From a virus, in IMG/VR virus record IMGVR_UViG_3300042402_001616, positions 1-24,018 of that record: a stretch of DNA of 24,018 nt. One strand, 5' to 3'. The position numbers and the translations under genes were made by a program. How positions within the stretch are numbered: position 1 is the first letter of the stretch; each line of letters starts with the position of its first letter. The notes under the pieces were generated by a model. The model made no database searches. It was not told the origin of the DNA and was given only the letters and a program-made list of their open reading frames with translations. Shown here in pieces: positions 2,552-11,769 of the stretch.

Positions 2552-3439
2552 TTAATCTTCTTCAGCGAGTTTGCTGAAATATGCCATATCATCATCTTCC
2601 GATTCATCTTTAAAAGGAGAATCATTAGATTTGGTTTTGGCGTCAAAGTTCTTCGCTTTGGTTTGTTCTACAGTTGTCTTTGGTGCTTCACCATTGAGGC
2701 CTAGAACTTTATCAAGGCGTTGTTTCAGAACATCATATGACTTGAATTCTTTATCAGAAGTCATTTCAGCCAAAGAAAACTCTGACTTCCAAATCTTTTC
2801 TAATTCATCATCATCACTCAACAATGGAGATGATGATTCAAATTCAGACTTGTCATAGTTCTGATAACCTTCAACTTTACGAATCTTTAACTTGAAGTTG
2901 GCACCTTTCCACAAATCAAATGGATTGACTGCTGTTTCATCTTCAAACTGAGGATTCATCGCTTCAGTAATCTTATCAAAGATTTTCTTACCGAACTTAA
3001 ACAATTTAACCTGACCTTCATTCTCAGGATGTTTTGGGTCGGACACAATATAAACATTGGCAATGTAATTTAGTTTACGTTTTTGTTTACGAACAATATC
3101 TTTGTTCGCTTCAATACCAGAATTCCACAATGCAGAATTGTGTTCACACACAGGACATTGTTGATTCTTGGTAGTCAGACAGTTATCAATCAACCATCCG
3201 CCTGCTCCTTGAAATCCATGTGAGAATATTTTGACCCATGGTAATGCATCATCACCATCTACAGCAGGTGCTGGCAGAAAACGAATCGTAGCCGTGCCGT
3301 TGCCAGCTTTGTCTACTTCTGGTCGCCAGAAATTATCGGATTTTTCGTTGCCCTCGGATGAGGTATTGAGTGCCTCGATTGCTTTAGATAACTTATCGAG
3401 GTTGCCAGATTGGCGTTTGAGGTTCGCAAATGAACTCAT
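2552..3439 (-). CDS. 32: single-stranded DNA-binding protein, T4 gp32 type
   Basis: This 295-aa product coats single-stranded DNA during replication, recombination and repair. The N-terminus has the basic LKRQSG patch (residues 7-12) resembling the T4 'LAST' motif used for cooperativity. The core has the gp32 zinc site as H74, C87, C95 and C98 (FSHGF, DNCL, CPVCEHN). The C-terminus is strongly acidic (SEDDDMAYFSKLAEED), as in T4 gp32, where it recruits partner proteins. Length is close to T4 gp32 (301 aa). An AAAGGAAG ribosome-binding site precedes the ATG. It lies downstream of a perfect sigma70 promoter and shares a transcription unit with gp59 and gp33, the same 33-59-32 order as T4, here with a HAD-type gene inserted between 59 and 32. 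Confidence 0.95.
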   Translation of the reverse strand: MSSFANLKRQSGNLDKLSKAIEALNTSSEGNEKSDNFWRPEVDKAGNGTATIRFLPAPAVDGDDALPWVKIFSHGFQGAGGWLIDNCLTTKNQQCPVCEHNSALWNSGIEANKDIVRKQKRKLNYIANVYIVSDPKHPENEGQVKLFKFGKKIFDKITEAMNPQFEDETAVNPFDLWKGANFKLKIRKVEGYQNYDKSEFESSSPLLSDDDELEKIWKSEFSLAEMTSDKEFKSYDVLKQRLDKVLGLNGEAPKTTVEQTKAKNFDAKTKSNDSPFKDESEDDDMAYFSKLAEED

Positions 3440-3532: not shown

Positions 3533-4014
3533 GTGTACATTTTCAAAATACCGATGGTAGTAATGGCATCCGTGTGAAGTATACCAATACCACCTTCTAC
3601 TCGCCATTGGTCGATGTTCTGTGAAGTATCGTCAATCAATAGTGAATTTGGGTTAGAGAAATTCTTTTTCAACCTTTTACCTGGTACCAAATTAACAGGA
3701 AACTCAATGTTATGGTTATTCAACCACTCTATCTTTTGTTCCCGAATCTCTGCATCTCGTTTCTCAGAAGAAGTGGATGAAAGAATCTCTGTTGGTATCT
3801 TTAATGACCTAAGATAGTTAATCAACATCATCGCATCAGGCATCAAGTCCAATTTAGCAAATTGTCTGTCAGCAATGAAGGTTGTGAAAAACTTATCAAA
3901 TGTTTTATATGTGTCCGCATCTTTTGGTGCAATCTTATATAATTCTTTGTATCGTTTATCAAAGTCAGCAATCACACCATCCATGTCCAAGTAAATCTTG
4001 GTAATCTTATGCAT
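3529..4014 (-). CDS. HAD-superfamily phosphatase, 5'(3')-deoxyribonucleotidase-like
   Basis: A 161-aa protein with the HAD motifs: DMDGVIADF at residues 10-18 (nucleophile D10, acid/base D12), a Ser/Thr motif II in ILSSTSS (about 77-83), a Lys-rich motif III area, and the acidic motif LLIDDT (about 125-130; D128, D129). Family members remove phosphate from small substrates; the short cap and phage context favour a nucleotidase or nucleic-acid-end phosphatase, but substrate cannot be read from sequence. Its start overlaps the end of gp59 by 8 bp and its stop lies inside the gp32 promoter. In T4, gene 59 is directly followed by 32, so this gene is an insertion into that pair. Confidence 0.8.
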   Translation of the reverse strand: MHKITKIYLDMDGVIADFDKRYKELYKIAPKDADTYKTFDKFFTTFIADRQFAKLDLMPDAMMLINYLRSLKIPTEILSSTSSEKRDAEIREQKIEWLNNHNIEFPVNLVPGKRLKKNFSNPNSLLIDDTSQNIDQWRVEGGIGILHTDAITTIGILKMYT

Positions 4015-4627
4015 ATTCTTTAATCTTTTCTTTTAAAATTTGTTTATACTTTTCTTTATCATATGGTATAAACGGTGTATATTTCTTTATAATTCTTTGG
4101 TGTGTTGGCCAAATAATATCTTCTGTAATTTGTTTCTCCCATTTTGGCATACAACCAAGTATATCAATTAGGATACAAACTGTTTCCAATGAAATCTTCT
4201 CATGCATCATCTTAGTAATTAACATTGGCCAACCACCATCAATAGGTTTGAAATAATCATCAATGTGCCAGAATTCGGCACCATCAACACTATCAAACAT
4301 ATACATTATATCATTCTCAAAGGTATATGTCAAGCTCTGTTGAGTTTTTTGCCACTTAGTATAGTTCTCATCACCATCTTGTAATAAGTCACCTACCCAA
4401 TCACCTTTACCTTGTATAAAGTTGGCAATATAGAAGTTCTTCAATTCATCCAAATTGTATTTACGGGATAGTTTATAGAATTGGTATTTTGATTTGTTGG
4501 TGGTGAATGTCTGTTTAGATACATTTGTTTTTCCGTTATACTTAAAGTAATCATAAGATTCGGAAGTAAAATGTAATTTCAAAGCATTCCATAAGGCATA
4601 TGCGGCAAAACCGGTATTCTCTGTCAT
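4007..4627 (-). CDS. 59: replicative helicase loader, T4 gp59 type
   Basis: The 206-aa product matches T4 gp59 in length (217 aa) and in a recognisable conserved stretch: DYFKYNGKTNVSK, then KYQFYKLSRKYNLDELKNFY and GDWVGDL correspond to T4 KYNW..VSDA, KYFFQKLSEKYKLKEL and DAWIGDI. gp59 loads the replicative helicase gp41 on forked DNA coated with gp32 and helps couple leading and lagging strands. Its location between gp33 and gp32 supports the call. No strong ribosome-binding site is visible before the ATG; expression may depend on translation from upstream. The host-range-determining part cannot be judged. Confidence 0.9.
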   Translation of the reverse strand: MTENTGFAAYALWNALKLHFTSESYDYFKYNGKTNVSKQTFTTNKSKYQFYKLSRKYNLDELKNFYIANFIQGKGDWVGDLLQDGDENYTKWQKTQQSLTYTFENDIMYMFDSVDGAEFWHIDDYFKPIDGGWPMLITKMMHEKISLETVCILIDILGCMPKWEKQITEDIIWPTHQRIIKKYTPFIPYDKEKYKQILKEKIKEYA

Positions 4628-4633
4628 GACTAA

Positions 4634-4855
4634 TTAGATTGGCAACTTAGAGCTTTTCTTAATCAAATTTAATTCTTGTGCTTCTTCACGAATTTTTGCT
4701 TTGAGTGCGGAAGAAATTAATGTAGATGCCACTTCAACTTCTAATCCCGTTTCTTTGCAATGGTGTAGAATGGCATCCATGTGATTACATCTCAATTTGA
4801 ATGCCAGTTCTTCAATCATCATGCTAAAATCTTTAATCTCACCTTTTGTTGGCAT
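4634..4855 (-). CDS. 33: late-transcription co-activator, T4 gp33 type
   Basis: The gene encodes 73 aa from ATG at 4855 (MPTKGEIKDFSMMIEEL). This start is preferred over the longer in-frame one at 4897 because GAGAAGT lies just upstream and phage relatives start at MPTK. Conserved-looking blocks are FSMMIE, MDAILHHCKETGLEVE and a C-terminal helix with EEAQELNLIKK. Known role of the family: gp33 sits on host RNA polymerase, links it to the sliding clamp gp45 and works with the late sigma gp55 at TATAAATA promoters. The product is smaller than T4 gp33 (112 aa), in line with the compact cyanophage versions. It directly precedes gp59 as in T4. Confidence 0.8.
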   Translation of the reverse strand: MPTKGEIKDFSMMIEELAFKLRCNHMDAILHHCKETGLEVEVASTLISSALKAKIREEAQELNLIKKSSKLPI

Positions 4856-4856
4856 A

Positions 4857-5399
4857 TTATATTTTACTTCTCTCTTTATAAAAAATGTGATTACCAATCT
4901 GTGTAATTCTTGGTAAATTCCAATTAGGCTTCACATAATTGGCATGATAATACATGGCCTTTTCACGATGAAGTATAACATGAGAAACTTCGGATGTCAA
5001 GGCTTTCTTTGCAACAAGTACCGATTCTTCCCATTGGTATGAATTACGAATCATACTGTATGCTGAACCACAGAACCAAGAGAACTGGCAGACTATTCTA
5101 CCATTCACTTCATCTTTTTGCTTGACAACACCACAAACTGTTTTAGGAAATTTACCAGAGTTTACACGATTGAGTGTTACTTGTGCTACTGCTAGTTTAC
5201 CTTCAAAGGACTCACCAGCAGATTCATAATAAATGTTTTCAGCAAGGCATTGTACCTCGTTACTGAAATGGTTGCCAAGATTTGAAACAGTTGCTTTGTT
5301 TGCTTGTGCCTTGGCTACGGGAATTAGTAGATTAACTGCAATGAGAACTGTTGAGATTGCAATTAAAAATTTATTTGTTACTTTACGGTTGAAATACAT
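4857..5399 (-). CDS. secreted SleB/CwlJ-type cell-wall hydrolase
   Basis: A 180-aa protein from ATG at 5399, chosen over an in-frame start at 5432 because AAAGGAAG lies 6 nt upstream. The N-terminus (KVTNKFLIAISTVLIAVNLL..VAKAQA) is a Sec signal peptide with an AKAQA cleavage-type site. The mature part has the hydrolase_2 family features: CLAENIYYESAGESFEGKLA, VAQVTLNRVNSGKFP, and paired cysteines (VCGVV, CQFSWFCG). Relatives act as peptidoglycan amidases or lytic transglycosylases, with the Glu in ENIYYES the probable catalytic residue. It ends one base before the gp33 start. A signal-peptide wall hydrolase inside a replication gene cluster, in addition to the GH19 lysin at the left edge, is notable; it may assist host lysis or envelope remodelling. 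Confidence 0.85.
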   Translation of the reverse strand: MYFNRKVTNKFLIAISTVLIAVNLLIPVAKAQANKATVSNLGNHFSNEVQCLAENIYYESAGESFEGKLAVAQVTLNRVNSGKFPKTVCGVVKQKDEVNGRIVCQFSWFCGSAYSMIRNSYQWEESVLVAKKALTSEVSHVILHREKAMYYHANYVKPNWNLPRITQIGNHIFYKERSKI

Positions 5400-5452
5400 T
5401 TTTCTTCCTTTTTGATTACGGCGGCCAAACATCTGACCGCCTTGGTCTCCAA

Positions 5453-5731
5453 TTACGAATTCGTTTTCGATTTTATTTTTACTTCAGGTTGTGGAGTGGT
5501 TTGAGAAACGAAACCATTGAGCATCTCTGCTTTTTTAATGATTTCTTCTTCGGAGGGAAATGGTGGAAAACCTGGATGTTGTGGTGAAGGAGTTCCGTTA
5601 ATTTTGGATTCTTCTACCTTGGTTGTCCACTCGTTTGAAATAACTTCACGCTTGCCATAATAGTCATCGGTGAGCATTTCTTTGGCCATTTTTAAGAGTT
5701 CTAGCCGTATCTCATAGGGTGTCATACTCAT
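5453..5731 (-). CDS. small conserved phage protein of unknown function
   Basis: A 92-aa protein starting MSMTPYEIRLELLKMAKEML, with AAGGAGAAG correctly spaced before the first ATG. The N-terminal half is predicted helical, with a Pro-rich middle (TPSPQHPGFPPFPSEEE) and a polar, lysine-rich tail. Proteins with this opening are familiar from T4-like environmental phages, but I know of no assigned function. It is the first gene downstream of the tmRNA, and a GATAAATA late-promoter-like site lies 60 bp upstream, so it may be expressed late or by read-through. Confidence 0.8.
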   Translation of the reverse strand: MSMTPYEIRLELLKMAKEMLTDDYYGKREVISNEWTTKVEESKINGTPSPQHPGFPPFPSEEEIIKKAEMLNGFVSQTTPQPEVKIKSKTNS

Positions 5732-5790
5732 TTACTTCTCCTTGTGTGTGTTTATGTGTATCACCAGCGGTTTGTGTTGTGCTGGTAATT

Positions 5791-5798
5791 TATTTATC
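5791..5798 (-). promoter_or_regulatory. candidate late promoter GATAAATA
   Basis: GATAAATA on the minus strand, 60 bp upstream of the 92-aa gene start at 5731. It fits the NATAAATA form of T4-like phage late promoters. It lies inside the presumed 3' part of the tmRNA coding piece, just after the 8-bp hairpin. An AT-rich octamer can occur by chance, so confidence is low. Confidence 0.35.
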
Positions 5799-5847
5799 CA
5801 GGTGATTCTGTTGCTAAGTTCACCTGGTGAAACTCCGCTTACCTTAT

Positions 5848-5880
5848 TCAGGCAGCAAGTGCATACTTATTATCGTTTGC
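5848..5880 (-). other. tmRNA tag-peptide reading frame (ANDNKYALAA)
   Basis: Ten codons GCA AAC GAT AAT AAG TAT GCA CTT GCT GCC and a TGA stop. The resume codon GCA is preceded by TTAACC, similar in position to the element that sets the frame in bacterial tmRNA. The tag begins AND and ends ALAA, like the ClpXP/ClpAP-recognised tag of E. coli (ANDENYALAA). It looks more like beta/gammaproteobacterial tags than like typical cyanobacterial ones. Confidence 0.9.
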
Positions 5881-6100
5881 GGTTAAATCAATTGCTTCTT
5901 CGACCGAGTGTCCTCAATCCTAACGTCTTTAGCTTTGACGATTCTCCATTGTTTTATTTTGCCATGTCGAATCTAAGCACCCCCATCAGAAGTATGCTGC
6001 CACCTATAGTGTTTGCTACCGATAACTCGGTTCGTCAGCCATACTTTTGGTGGAGGTGGGCGGATTTGCACCGCCGTCCACAACAACTTTCAAACAACTT

Positions 6101-6220
6101 CTACGAATGCTTGCTTAATACAAAAAGAACTGCTAATACAACTAGTGCAAAACCACAGGCACCGGTATAAAATGCAAAACTTTTTACTTTAACTTGTTTT
6201 ACACATTCTTTGCTAGGCAT
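6101..6220 (-). CDS. 39-aa single-span membrane protein
   Basis: The gene starts at ATG 6220 with AAAGGA 8 nt upstream and ends TAG at 6101, just before the tmRNA acceptor piece. The product (MPSKECVKQVKVKSFAFYTG, then ACGFALVVLAVLFVLSKHS) has a basic N-terminus and one hydrophobic helix of about 19 residues near the C-terminus, so it should be a tiny inner-membrane protein. Its start overlaps the stop of the previous 41-aa gene (TAATG), showing translational coupling. An in-frame extension to 6334 exists but lacks support. Function is unknown. Confidence 0.7.
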   Translation of the reverse strand: MPSKECVKQVKVKSFAFYTGACGFALVVLAVLFVLSKHS

Positions 6221-6345
6221 TACAGTATCCTTTCTAGTAACCAAATAACAAAAAGAAAACTTAGACCACCAGCCAAAAATTTTAAAGCCCCGTACTGTCT
6301 TTCGTTCTGCTCGGGTGTGCAGAGTTTTTTCCAATATTTGTTCAT
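6220..6345 (-). CDS. 41-aa membrane-anchored protein, possibly near-leaderless
   Basis: ATG at 6345 to TAA at 6220. The product begins MNKYWKKLCTPEQNERQ and ends with the hydrophobic GALKFLAGGLSFLFVIWLL segment, a likely single membrane helix with a charged N-terminal domain. The sigma70-type promoter just upstream has its -10 at 6359-6354, so transcription should begin near 6347. That leaves a leader of only about 2 nt, or else the gene is read from upstream transcripts, where an AGGAC motif can serve as a weak ribosome-binding site. It is coupled by TAATG to the next tiny membrane gene and lies in the same unit as the tmRNA. Confidence 0.65.
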   Translation of the reverse strand: MNKYWKKLCTPEQNERQYGALKFLAGGLSFLFVIWLLERIL

Positions 6346-6391: not shown

Positions 6392-7051
6392 TTAATGTTT
6401 ACCACTTTTCTCATAATATGAAATGGCATTGACTAGGCCTGTTATGTGGTCCTCAGTCTTTTGTTTGAACACGATAGGACTCGAATCCTCAACGGCCATG
6501 ACGATAACCAAGTCATGAATAGGTTCACCAATCAACTCCTCATACATCAAGGCATAGGCAGATGTTTGCCAGAAGTAATCTTCAATATCTTCGTGGCTCT
6601 TAATTTTTTTGGATGTTTTAAAATCAATTACCGAAAGTGTACCATCAAACTCAGCAATGCAATCCACTCGGCCTGCCATGTTTAATTGTTTAGACCATAA
6701 TGCCTGTTCTTGGTAATGAATATTATTAATACGATTCAGCTCTGGCTTAATTGATAAAAACATCTCATGTGCATCAGGCATAATATCACCTAATGATTCA
6801 TTGTTTAAATATCGTTCACATAATGTATGAACATTGGTACCACGAGAAGTGGCTTTCTTTGTAATGGCATTGGCAACATCTTCACCCACTTTGTTACGCC
6901 ATGCTTGAAAGATATGTTTCTTTTGAGCACCAATTACTGTGGTAACCGATGGTAGTTTTGTACCGTCAGGTAGTTTATAGAATCGTTTACCGTCAGGAAA
7001 TGTTTCTGATTGCAGGTCTTGTAATTGTTTTGGTGGGCAGTAATTAAACAT
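6392..7051 (-). CDS. PD-(D/E)XK nuclease, RecB/Cas4-like exonuclease domain
   Basis: A 219-aa protein with the ordered motifs of the RecB-type PD-(D/E)XK nuclease fold: H75 in GTNVHTLCERYL, E116 in QEQALWS, D130 in GRVDCIAEF, D143-F-K145 in VIDFKTSKK, and the Q162xxxY166 motif in WQTSAYALMY. The D..DxK metal centre and QxxxY are the catalytic and structural hallmarks. Genes of this type are frequent in T4-like phages and are annotated as exonucleases acting in DNA processing or recombination. Its start overlaps the preceding 2OG oxygenase gene by 8 bp, placing it in the same transcription unit, but it is followed by an independent promoter for the tmRNA genes. Confidence 0.88.
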   Translation of the reverse strand: MFNYCPPKQLQDLQSETFPDGKRFYKLPDGTKLPSVTTVIGAQKKHIFQAWRNKVGEDVANAITKKATSRGTNVHTLCERYLNNESLGDIMPDAHEMFLSIKPELNRINNIHYQEQALWSKQLNMAGRVDCIAEFDGTLSVIDFKTSKKIKSHEDIEDYFWQTSAYALMYEELIGEPIHDLVIVMAVEDSSPIVFKQKTEDHITGLVNAISYYEKSGKH

Positions 7052-9025: not shown

Positions 9026-9391
9026 TTAACCCCTAGAGGCTTTCCATTCTTCATATTGACGAATAATTGGACAATCATAATCCCAATTAATGCCTTCGTG
9101 TGGATTGGCATTAGCTGCTGCAAAGCGTTTACCTTGGACGTGTTCAATGATATCGATACCGGGGTGTAGTATTTTTTCTAAAATATCAGCATACTGTTCA
9201 ATCATTTGAAAAAAACGACTTTTATCTTCTGGTGTTAGATTCAATATGTCATTACCTAATTGACTATCAAAGTAGTGAACAATGTGTTTTCTATACTTTT
9301 CAATTTCTTCCTCTGTTACTGTGCCATCACGATTTAAATCGGCGTCAGCAATACCATCGGCATTGAAATCAATATCTTTAATGTTTATCAT
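9026..9391 (-). CDS. EF-hand calcium-binding protein
   Basis: A 121-aa protein whose first 35 residues contain calcium-binding loops. A canonical 12-residue EF-hand loop starts at D18 (D18, N20, D22, G23, T26, E29: DLNRDGTVTEEE). Just before it lies a second Asp/Asn ladder (DFNADGIADAD), in the style of dockerin or thrombospondin type-3 loops. The remainder is helical and acidic with no further motif I recognise. Its ATG overlaps the TGA of the Cys-rich protein gene (ATGA), implying coupled translation and perhaps a shared role, for example Ca-dependent binding in the virion or at the cell surface. Confidence 0.75.
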   Translation of the reverse strand: MINIKDIDFNADGIADADLNRDGTVTEEEIEKYRKHIVHYFDSQLGNDILNLTPEDKSRFFQMIEQYADILEKILHPGIDIIEHVQGKRFAAANANPHEGINWDYDCPIIRQYEEWKASRG

Positions 9392-10287
9392 TTAGCAAAT
9401 CCTTGGATAAATTTTGTTTTTACAATTAATTTTATTTTATCTATTAATTTAGAAGTTTTTACAATTGATTTTGCACAGAAAAAACTACCTAAACATAAGA
9501 ACCACATCATCCATGATCCAAACAACCCTAATTTATATTTCTTGGGTAACATAAACACAAGTTTACACACTACACGACCAATTTTCATTAGTATCTTACC
9601 GACAGGATTATCTTTTTCAATAGTTCCCATGAGATACGCCATGTGTTCGGCCCAAGGTGTGGCAATTTTATGAGCCCACTTTGTAGTTGCTTCTTTTTGT
9701 TTTTGATTTCTTTCTTTTTTGTTTACCCATAACATAAAATCAGGACCTGTACCGTCCATCCATGCTGTTACTGTTTTAGCCCAACGAATATAACCACGGT
9801 AAACAACCTTATCATTTTTCTTTAACCAAGAACCATACTTTTGATCAGCAGCCCACACACGATAGTCCAACATACCAAACTCGTATAATTTGGCACAGAT
9901 AATCTTAGAACAATTACAAGCACAGTTACAGTTAAATGAAGTTTCTGATGTGGTGCAGTTGTAGGTACAAGCACAGTTACAATTTGTTTGCAACCAGTTT
10001 TGTGCATCACAATTGGTACAATTTACACTGCCAGAAATTAAACAATTATTACATTGAATATTACCACAGTTACAGTTACTTGTGCAATTACCATTGTTGC
10101 AATTGCCTTGTGTATTGTTCTGAAACCAATCTTTACTGTAAAAATTGCTCATGGCCGGTGTTGCCGGTCTTTGAGTTGGTACAATTTGATTGTTTAGAAA
10201 CTCTAGGCTGGATGAGAAAGTAGGTGATTGACCTATTTTACTATTTACGTCATTAAAACTAATTGCTCCAGATGATGGTAATGTCAT
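9388..10287 (-). CDS. Cys/Asn-rich virion-like protein, candidate substrate of the adjacent radical SAM enzyme
   Basis: A 299-aa protein in three parts. Residues 1-51 (MTLPSSGAISFNDVNSKIG and, later, MSNFYSK) resemble the N-terminal module found at the start of many phage tail and appendage proteins. Residues 63-131 hold 17 cysteines (63, 68, 72, 74, 79, 82, 90, 93, 103, 105, 107, 111, 120, 122, 124, 126, 131), mostly as NC, CNC and CAC units among Asn and Thr. Residues 132-299 are Trp/Tyr/Lys-rich and helical with a hydrophobic stretch (about 254-272). A TATAAATA late promoter lies about 30 bp upstream. Cysteine clusters of this density usually bind metal, form disulfides or receive enzymatic crosslinks. 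The gene follows a radical SAM/SPASM gene by 12 bp. Virion location is inferred. Confidence 0.8.
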   Translation of the reverse strand: MTLPSSGAISFNDVNSKIGQSPTFSSSLEFLNNQIVPTQRPATPAMSNFYSKDWFQNNTQGNCNNGNCTSNCNCGNIQCNNCLISGSVNCTNCDAQNWLQTNCNCACTYNCTTSETSFNCNCACNCSKIICAKLYEFGMLDYRVWAADQKYGSWLKKNDKVVYRGYIRWAKTVTAWMDGTGPDFMLWVNKKERNQKQKEATTKWAHKIATPWAEHMAYLMGTIEKDNPVGKILMKIGRVVCKLVFMLPKKYKLGLFGSWMMWFLCLGSFFCAKSIVKTSKLIDKIKLIVKTKFIQGFAK

Positions 10288-10299
10288 AGTATTACTCGA

Positions 10300-11769
10300 T
10301 TAATTGGTTATTTTAGTATTTATATCATCGGCCAACCGTGATTTACCATAGACTTCCACACCTTCAATCTCACCTATCTTTTCACTTACGACCTTGATCG
10401 GTATAATCTTTTTCTTTGGTTCTTCTTTATGTTCATACACGGTACCCCAAATATCTTGGCGATCCAATGGCAATTCTGGATGTTTAATTAATACAGGAAT
10501 ATAACCCGTCATACGAGCCAGAGCAATTGCAAAAAGAGCCACATTGTCTGAATATGAATTGGCACAAGAAACATCCCAAAACTTTTTATCTAAGAACATA
10601 CAGGCACCTTGACATAGGTGTAAAACTGGACATTTAGGACACTCTTTACGATTTGACCAATGGGTTGAGGTCTTAATCTCAACCTTATCAAATTCTTTTA
10701 GGTTACCACCATAATGTGCTTCACCGTTCTTACCCACCTCAACAGCACTTACGTTTTGACAGGTCATTACATTACCTCGTAAGTCTACCGCCAAGGTGTG
10801 TTCATTGTCCATTCCACACTTTTGATTGAGATATTTTGATTCTGAGTGTGATAAAACAGCCTGAGTGAAACCATCTATTTTACCTAATTGTCCAAAGAAT
10901 CCAATCTGACCATTGGTTGAAAATATATCTGAGAAAGCTGTTCTGCGATATTCAAAATGTTCAGCTTTGGTTTGCAAACTGTTCTGCATACCATCTTCAT
11001 CGTAACTATCTACAATACCACCTTCACCCAATTTAATATCAGTATCACCAGTGAGTTTAACAAACCAATCATAAATCTCTTTGCGTGATTTGTTTTTACT
11101 ATTCATCATTGGATTAAAACTGATGCCTTTACCTAATCGGGTCATTGCACGATAGAAATCTAAAATGATTTTCTTTTGGTCTAGATCATCAAATGGATCA
11201 GGACCACGAACTGATTGACCAGGTCCATCATGTGAGATTGATACAGAAAAGTCCATCATCATCAACCAATCACAAATATCTGGTGTCAAAATAGAACCAT
11301 TGGTGATTACAGAGAATCGTGGTTTATTTTCCCAATGTTCAAAGCGCTCACGAATGGTCTCAGCCAATGGCTTCATTGTCTTCCAATAGACAAATGGTTC
11401 ACCACCCCAAAACTCAATCGCAAGGCCTTTCTTTTCATCAAACTCCAATGTGTCAAACATCTCCATAAAAGCATCAATATCTTTCTTGGATGTTTCAGGC
11501 ATGCGCTCAACAAACTTCTGAGAACAATAGTCGCATGAATAGTTACAACTCAAACCCATTTGGATTTTAAGTAACTGAACATTCTTAGATTTTTTAAGTG
11601 GATGGTCTTTGTCGAATGGACGATAAGGTGTTAAATTATGATTATGAACCGTTCCTTCAGGAAACTGAAAGGTGATTCCATCTTCACTCTTTAATGTATT
11701 GGTTTCATTGTCATAGTAAAAGATTTTTTTATCGTTTGCACTTCGTTCAGAGTGTATTTCAAATATCAT
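10300..11769 (-). CDS. radical SAM enzyme with SPASM-type C-terminal domain
   Basis: A 489-aa enzyme of the peptide-modifying radical SAM type. The CxxxCxxC cluster that binds the SAM-cleaving 4Fe-4S centre is C75-x3-C79-x2-C82 (LSCNYSCDYC), followed by EFWGGEP (about 119-125), the SAM-contacting motif. The C-terminal third has the SPASM/auxiliary-cluster cysteines: KCGMDNEHTLAVD, GNVMTCQN, ECPKCPVLHLCQGACMF and VSCANSY. Such enzymes (anaerobic sulfatase-maturating enzymes, sactipeptide and ranthipeptide synthases) install thioether, C-C or formylglycine changes on Cys, Ser or other residues of a protein partner. The adjacent downstream gene encodes a Cys-rich protein, the natural candidate partner. 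No RiPP-recognition domain is obvious. The last 50 residues are a Lys/Glu-rich extension beyond the SPASM domain. Confidence 0.9.
   Translation of the reverse strand: MIFEIHSERSANDKKIFYYDNETNTLKSEDGITFQFPEGTVHNHNLTPYRPFDKDHPLKKSKNVQLLKIQMGLSCNYSCDYCSQKFVERMPETSKKDIDAFMEMFDTLEFDEKKGLAIEFWGGEPFVYWKTMKPLAETIRERFEHWENKPRFSVITNGSILTPDICDWLMMMDFSVSISHDGPGQSVRGPDPFDDLDQKKIILDFYRAMTRLGKGISFNPMMNSKNKSRKEIYDWFVKLTGDTDIKLGEGGIVDSYDEDGMQNSLQTKAEHFEYRRTAFSDIFSTNGQIGFFGQLGKIDGFTQAVLSHSESKYLNQKCGMDNEHTLAVDLRGNVMTCQNVSAVEVGKNGEAHYGGNLKEFDKVEIKTSTHWSNRKECPKCPVLHLCQGACMFLDKKFWDVSCANSYSDNVALFAIALARMTGYIPVLIKHPELPLDRQDIWGTVYEHKEEPKKKIIPIKVVSEKIGEIEGVEVYGKSRLADDINTKITN
10317..10324 (-). promoter_or_regulatory. 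T4-type late promoter TATAAATA
   Basis: An exact TATAAATA on the minus strand (TATTTATA on plus), within the last codons of the radical SAM gene and about 30 bp upstream of the Cys-rich protein start at 10287. Transcription would begin near 10310. The sequence is the T4 late-promoter consensus used by gp55 and gp33; gp33 is encoded in this window. Its location before a virion-like gene is as expected. Confidence 0.7.

Follow-up and report, generated by a model that had tools for sequence, protein, structure and literature searches.

The question raised by this locus is whether a phage carries a tmRNA encoded in two permuted pieces, and what such an RNA would do during infection. The window analysed here is a stretch of 24,018 nucleotides from an IMG/VR virus record (IMGVR_UViG_3300042402_001616), and the initial annotation had read a region of its minus strand as a circularly permuted two-piece tmRNA gene of a lytic-type T4-like phage. 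This identification is upheld by covariation, by synteny and by two detection methods, ARAGORN and Rfam. At minus-strand positions 5757-6140 ARAGORN predicts a permuted tmRNA carrying the tag ANDNKYALAA, and the Rfam tmRNA_permuted model (RF04321) matches 6108-5848 on the same strand over its whole length (positions 1-213), in permuted order, scoring 107 bits where 47 bits is the cut-off (E 2.7e-20). The negative covariance-model result that would have overturned the identification did not arise. The two methods differ in the 5' start of the acceptor RNA, placed at 6108 by RF04321 and at 6140 by ARAGORN. The standard one-piece tmRNA (RF00023), in which the 5' part comes first and there is no spacer, is ruled out because the order in the window is permuted. 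Compared at the DNA level with 50,697 phage records, the window tmRNA had no direct match, being too divergent. We conclude that the gene very probably encodes a functional two-piece tmRNA that would add ribosome-rescue capacity in infection.

Table 1. Parts of the tmRNA and neighbouring genes, in window coordinates.
Feature	Position	Strand	Content or evidence
Acceptor RNA (3' part, encoded first)	6048-6108	minus	P2 strand, T arm, acceptor 3' strand, A, CCA
T stem-loop GGCGG-TGCAAAT-CCGCC	6059-6075	minus	Direct reading; base 55 = G at 6069
Acceptor 3' strand CACCTCC (6058-6052), discriminator A (6051), CCA (6050-6048)	6048-6058	minus	Direct reading
Spacer, 63 nt, predicted to be cut out	5985-6047	minus	Direct reading
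Coding RNA (5' part, encoded second), 3' end approximate	5798-5984	minus	Acceptor 5' strand, D-like loop, P2, P3 hairpin, tag frame, 3' hairpin
Acceptor 5' strand GGGGGTG	5978-5984	minus	7/7 pairs with 6058-6052, G3:U70
D-like loop	5966-5977 (reading CTTAGATTCGAC; to 5965 as CTTAGATTCGACA)	minus	A18 at 5974, G19 at 5973
Tag frame GCA...TGA, ANDNKYALAA-stop	5848-5880	minus	Ends ALAA, ClpXP-type
PD-(D/E)XK exonuclease, conserved upstream neighbour	6392-7051	minus	PF12705 E 6.2e-9; synteny
77-aa ORF just upstream, stop at acceptor RNA 5' edge	6101-6334	minus	Nearest relatives only
92-aa ORF just downstream	5453-5731	minus	Pfam: no match
Cell wall hydrolase (Hydrolase_2/SleB)	4857-5432	minus	PF07486 E 1.1e-24
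gp33 late-transcription coactivator, conserved downstream neighbour	4634-4897	minus	PF16805 E 5.1e-16
gp59 helicase loader	4007-4627	minus	PF08993 E 5.4e-10
gp32 single-stranded DNA-binding protein	2552-3439	minus	tblastn about 55% identity to Kyanoviridae gp32 (nearest)

Read directly, the parts lie where they had been proposed: the predicted boundaries at 6048 (acceptor part) and 5984 (coding part) are correct, the 7-nt ends rebuild a fully paired acceptor stem, and the ANDNKYALAA-TGA frame found at the expected place (5880-5848) is also the tag given by ARAGORN. The third acceptor pair is a G:U, the identity pair of alanyl-tRNA synthetase (AlaRS), and the discriminator A is present. The T-loop occupies 6070-6064 (minus strand), the tag frame begins with a resume codon and closes with a hydrophobic/Ala degron and a stop, and the 3' hairpin of the coding RNA is formed by CCAGGTGA/TCACCTGG at 5827-5820/5805-5798, with an additional hairpin at 5788-5761. 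Between P3 and the tag lies GTTAGGATTGAGGACACTCGGTCGAAGAAGC (about 5924-5894), which is mostly missing from four relatives (L026, L131, L140 and L064). We do not claim an H-type pseudoknot (CGUC/GACG plus CUAA/UUAG) in the window because its second stem is not conserved among relatives.

The initial annotation had also described a spacer with pairing ends. The ends AAGTATG (6046-6040) and CATACTT (5996-5990) do pair, and 67 distinct phage spacers have a mean end stem of 8.9 pairs against 4.2 in shuffles, but the seven-pair stem of the window taken alone is borderline (shuffle p about 0.06). RNAfold predicts a single continuous hairpin for the acceptor-spacer-acceptor segment (-32.3 kcal/mol). 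The pairing of the spacer ends lends indirect support to the predicted removal of the spacer. The window spacer has CTGAT at its 3' terminus, and an NTGAT motif is terminal in most phage spacers.

The source of the window, as judged from this 24-kb fragment, is a T4-like phage. The genes around the tmRNA all lie on the same strand, in the order PD-(D/E)XK exonuclease, 77-aa ORF, tmRNA, 92-aa ORF, hydrolase, gp33, gp59, an NT5C-type nucleotidase and gp32. The nearest good match to a sigma-70-like promoter in the window is at 6382-6354, and in two relatives (L164 and L028) such promoters (TTGACA plus a TATA-like -10) stand right before the tmRNA. Elsewhere in the window, at 9388-11769, a radical SAM protein (10300-11769) has as its direct neighbour a 299-aa protein whose middle part is rich in Cys and Asn, and the two may form a peptide-modification pair.

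Conservation of this arrangement was assessed using gp32 relatives drawn from IMG/VR without regard to tmRNA, which gave 42 loci whose sequence extends 3.2 kb or more upstream of gp32. A permuted tmRNA was found by ARAGORN in 28 of the 42, and Rfam added six (L140, L145, L176, L181, L201 and L198); one contig (L126) ends before the tmRNA site, leaving 41 testable loci. A permuted tmRNA is therefore present upstream of gp33-gp59-gp32 in 34 of 41 related contigs, mostly just after the exonuclease. The remaining seven (L124, L132, L133, L139, L142, L171 and L173) have no tmRNA detectable by ARAGORN or Rfam at these thresholds, indicating, on present sequence comparisons, that the gene is accessory and not essential. 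In all 36 gp32-related tmRNA loci gp33/gp59 follow downstream on the tmRNA strand, and 30 of these loci also have the exonuclease upstream; both neighbours flank 37 of 60 loci found by tmRNA pattern. In the cyanophages S-CREM1, S-ShM2 and S-SCSM1 the exonuclease and gp33 are adjacent or nearly so, with no space for a tmRNA. A match in CcrColossus was set aside, as only tRNA genes and no tmRNA were called there.

Comparison among these phages indicates that the tmRNA gene is clearly kept by selection. The acceptor stem has been rewritten on both strands in relatives (GGGGGTG/CACCTCC, GGGGCTG/CAGCTCC, GGGGATG/CATCTCC, GGGCCTG/CAGGTCC, GGGGGAG/CTCCTCC and GTGGGCG/CGCCTAC) with seven of seven pairs retained, and G3:U70 and the discriminator A occur in every clearly parsed relative. 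In the 14 nearest relatives both-side changes are found in the T stem (all five pairs covary), P2, the P2 extension and the P3 hairpin, relative to a structure that was predicted from the same alignment and so leans towards itself. The tag frame is open across the phages, intact in nearly all relatives, with an AND or ANE start and mostly an ALAA end. Base 55 of the T-loop and base 18 of the D-loop, the latter loop being one base longer in a few alignment rows, are linked in phages, U55 occurring with G18 and G55 with A18. When the tree is made with those columns left out, this trait changes about 12 times among phages, and in each of eight independent comparisons across supported branches a change in one base is matched by a change in its partner (sign test p = 0.0078). 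Since the two bases would lie on different mature RNAs, their coupled change across two separately encoded pieces is comparative evidence that the pieces meet as a tRNA-like elbow through a T-loop/D-loop contact.

The window itself carries the G55/A18 combination. Its loop, TGCAAAT, falls in a class (TGCRANT) that comprises about half of the distinct phage tmRNAs (29 of 54) and is unlike the bacterial T-loops met in this analysis, the elbow being U-G-C with A18 in these phages, U-U-C with G18 in the beta type and G-G-C with A18 in the alpha type. Loops of this kind did not turn up in 369 genomes from the taxonomic class of a Nitrosomonadales genome or in 385 from that of an alphaproteobacterial genome, 754 sampled in all; control patterns for usual T-loops matched in 8 of 94 and 12 of 96 genomes of the same sets. 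Because some acceptor-strand bases were specified in the search pattern, hosts whose stems differ would have escaped it. An RNA with no U55 would have no possible pseudouridine 55 and might evade T-loop recognition by enzymes of the host or by defence nucleases. That aquatic T4-like phages evolved an elbow of their own for this purpose, as a rescue RNA fitted to the infected cell, is a speculative and rather improbable extension of these observations.

The initial annotation had regarded a permuted tmRNA in a T4-like phage as rare, which does not hold: besides the 34 related contigs above, 53 two-piece tmRNAs, 50 of them aquatic, had already been counted in public phage genomes (PMC9004378), and a tmRNA database holds 79 unique phage sequences (PMC11915505). 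Given the marine-phage tmRNAs reported in 2022, both rarity and novelty are lower than first held; the two-piece tmRNA itself is already known from marine phages, and the window is a well-supported further case and no new system. What is new here is the broad, fixed synteny, the cross-piece covariation, the occurrence of alpha and beta types at one locus and, possibly, the G55/A18 U-G-C T-loop.

A close published parallel is Methylophilales phage Melnitz (MZ577097), a T4-like phage that yielded no phage SmpB and whose permuted tmRNA, described as a two-piece ssrA, reportedly lies immediately upstream of gp33 (PMC9004378). Its tmRNA differs in being of alpha type (alpha_tmRNA 106.7 bits) with T-loop GGCAGTA and tag ANDNYVPVDYALAA, whereas the window is nearest to the beta model, and in having a glutamine riboswitch after it (RF01739, 52.8 bits). 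This riboswitch (L295 699-747) lies past the end of the tmRNA model match (691), outside the conserved part. Within 5650-6300 of the window neither RF01739 nor RF01704 had a match at E up to 10, and a by-eye likeness of the P3-to-tag stretch to the glutamine aptamer was accordingly dropped. The Pelagibacter phages Mosig (MT647606) and HTVC008M (KC465899) share the exonuclease, tmRNA, gp33 order, in Mosig as exonuclease, ORF, annotated SsrA and gp33, together with the G55/A18 elbow. They differ in fitting the alpha-type model best (67.6 and 83.8 bits), in their tags (GEDNFALAA and ANFNEYALAA) and in having no hydrolase annotated between tmRNA and gp33. The HTVC008M tmRNA (L278 5939-6280; KC465899.1 145120-145461) is absent from the GenBank annotation, and Mosig has a manA RNA motif (RF01745, 64 bits) just before its rubrerythrin gene (L285 9094-9301). 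Mycobacteriophages of the Bxz1 type and Bacillus phage G also encode a tmRNA (PMC4131195); these phages are unrelated, and the window tmRNA is permuted and resides in a T4-like aquatic phage.

Of three lineage-specific models, the betaproteobacterial permuted tmRNA (RF01850, beta_tmRNA, found for example in Gallionellaceae) fits the window best. It aligns over its full length but scores 56.2 bits, under its gathering cut-off of 84, and the window has TGCAAAT and A18 instead of TTCRATT and G18. Related phages and Gallionellaceae have similar spacer ends (TAAG...CTTATGAT) and tags (ANDENYALAA), and three relatives (L201, L176 and L198) pass the RF01850 cut-off, so that beta-type tmRNAs occur at the same locus as the alpha-type ones of Melnitz, Mosig and HTVC008M. 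No donor with the 5' signature of the window (GGGGGTGNNNNGATTCGACATGGC) was found among the bacterial genome contigs searched. In a tree, the phage sequences are interspersed with alpha as well as beta bacterial sequences, support is low and at least two label changes are forced; a single origin is therefore not shown and no donor is named.

SmpB was found in none of 17 related phage records, the control detecting it in 10 of 14 genomes, and host SmpB is thus presumably used. Most likely, the phage supplies a trans-translation RNA that relies on the SmpB and AlaRS of its host. In the precursor, the acceptor stem would run on into the spacer hairpin, and by analogy with the two-piece tmRNA of Caulobacter, host tRNA-processing nucleases would remove the spacer to leave an acceptor RNA with a CCA end and a coding RNA. 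The acceptor stem, P2 and the contact between T-loop and D-loop would join the two pieces, and this pairing is backed by covariation. Host AlaRS would charge the RNA via G3:U70, host SmpB would deliver it where ribosomes have stalled on broken messages, and the ANDNKYALAA tag would be added, the product then being degraded by host proteases. The most likely benefit would be more rescue capacity while messages are cut and degraded in infection, freeing ribosomes for phage synthesis.

Trans-translation relieves the effects of mRNA-cutting toxins, and the phage copy could instead be a counter-defence against host toxins or RNases that cleave mRNA or tRNA during infection, replacing host tmRNA lost to them or rescuing the ribosomes that they stall. 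The absence of the G55/A18 variant from the 754 sampled bacterial genomes would fit such a different selection, but the variant may be drift in phage lineages, and we consider this unlikely as the main role. For Melnitz, upkeep of hijacked machinery and tagging of host proteins were proposed (PMC9004378), the same two possibilities that the initial annotation raised for the window. A main role in marking host proteins for degradation, with amino acid recycling early in infection, agrees with the ALAA end of the window tag; as tmRNA acts on any stalled ribosome and no sequence feature selective for host messages is present, we think it quite unlikely. Counter-defence and host-protein tagging are both possible extensions of added trans-translation capacity.

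The mycobacteriophage DS6A provides a precedent for the opposite effect, a molecule with no tag and only a tRNA-like domain that is proposed to inhibit tmRNA, perhaps by titrating SmpB (PMC4131195, PMC11915505). An RNA in the window that likewise bound SmpB or ribosomes and shut down host trans-translation would suit a phage group with no SmpB of its own in 17 records, but a decoy needs neither the tag frame, the resume context nor the ALAA-type end that are intact in nearly all relatives, which argues against a pure decoy and makes it highly improbable. Islands and prophages often integrate at ssrA (PMC9004378, PMC11915505), but a passive leftover of the host gene, acquired by recombination or integration, is very improbable, as the phage gene is full length, covariation and an intact tag are both found across the group, compensatory evolution spans deep divergence, and its position is conserved inside a replication/late-transcription gene block.

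Added trans-translation capacity thus remains the preferred reading, and the split tmRNA appears as a widespread accessory gene that selection maintains in a large group of T4-like phages from aquatic settings, in most cases in the same block by the late-transcription coactivator. Phage control of ribosome rescue would be testable in the cultured phages HTVC008M, Mosig and Melnitz.
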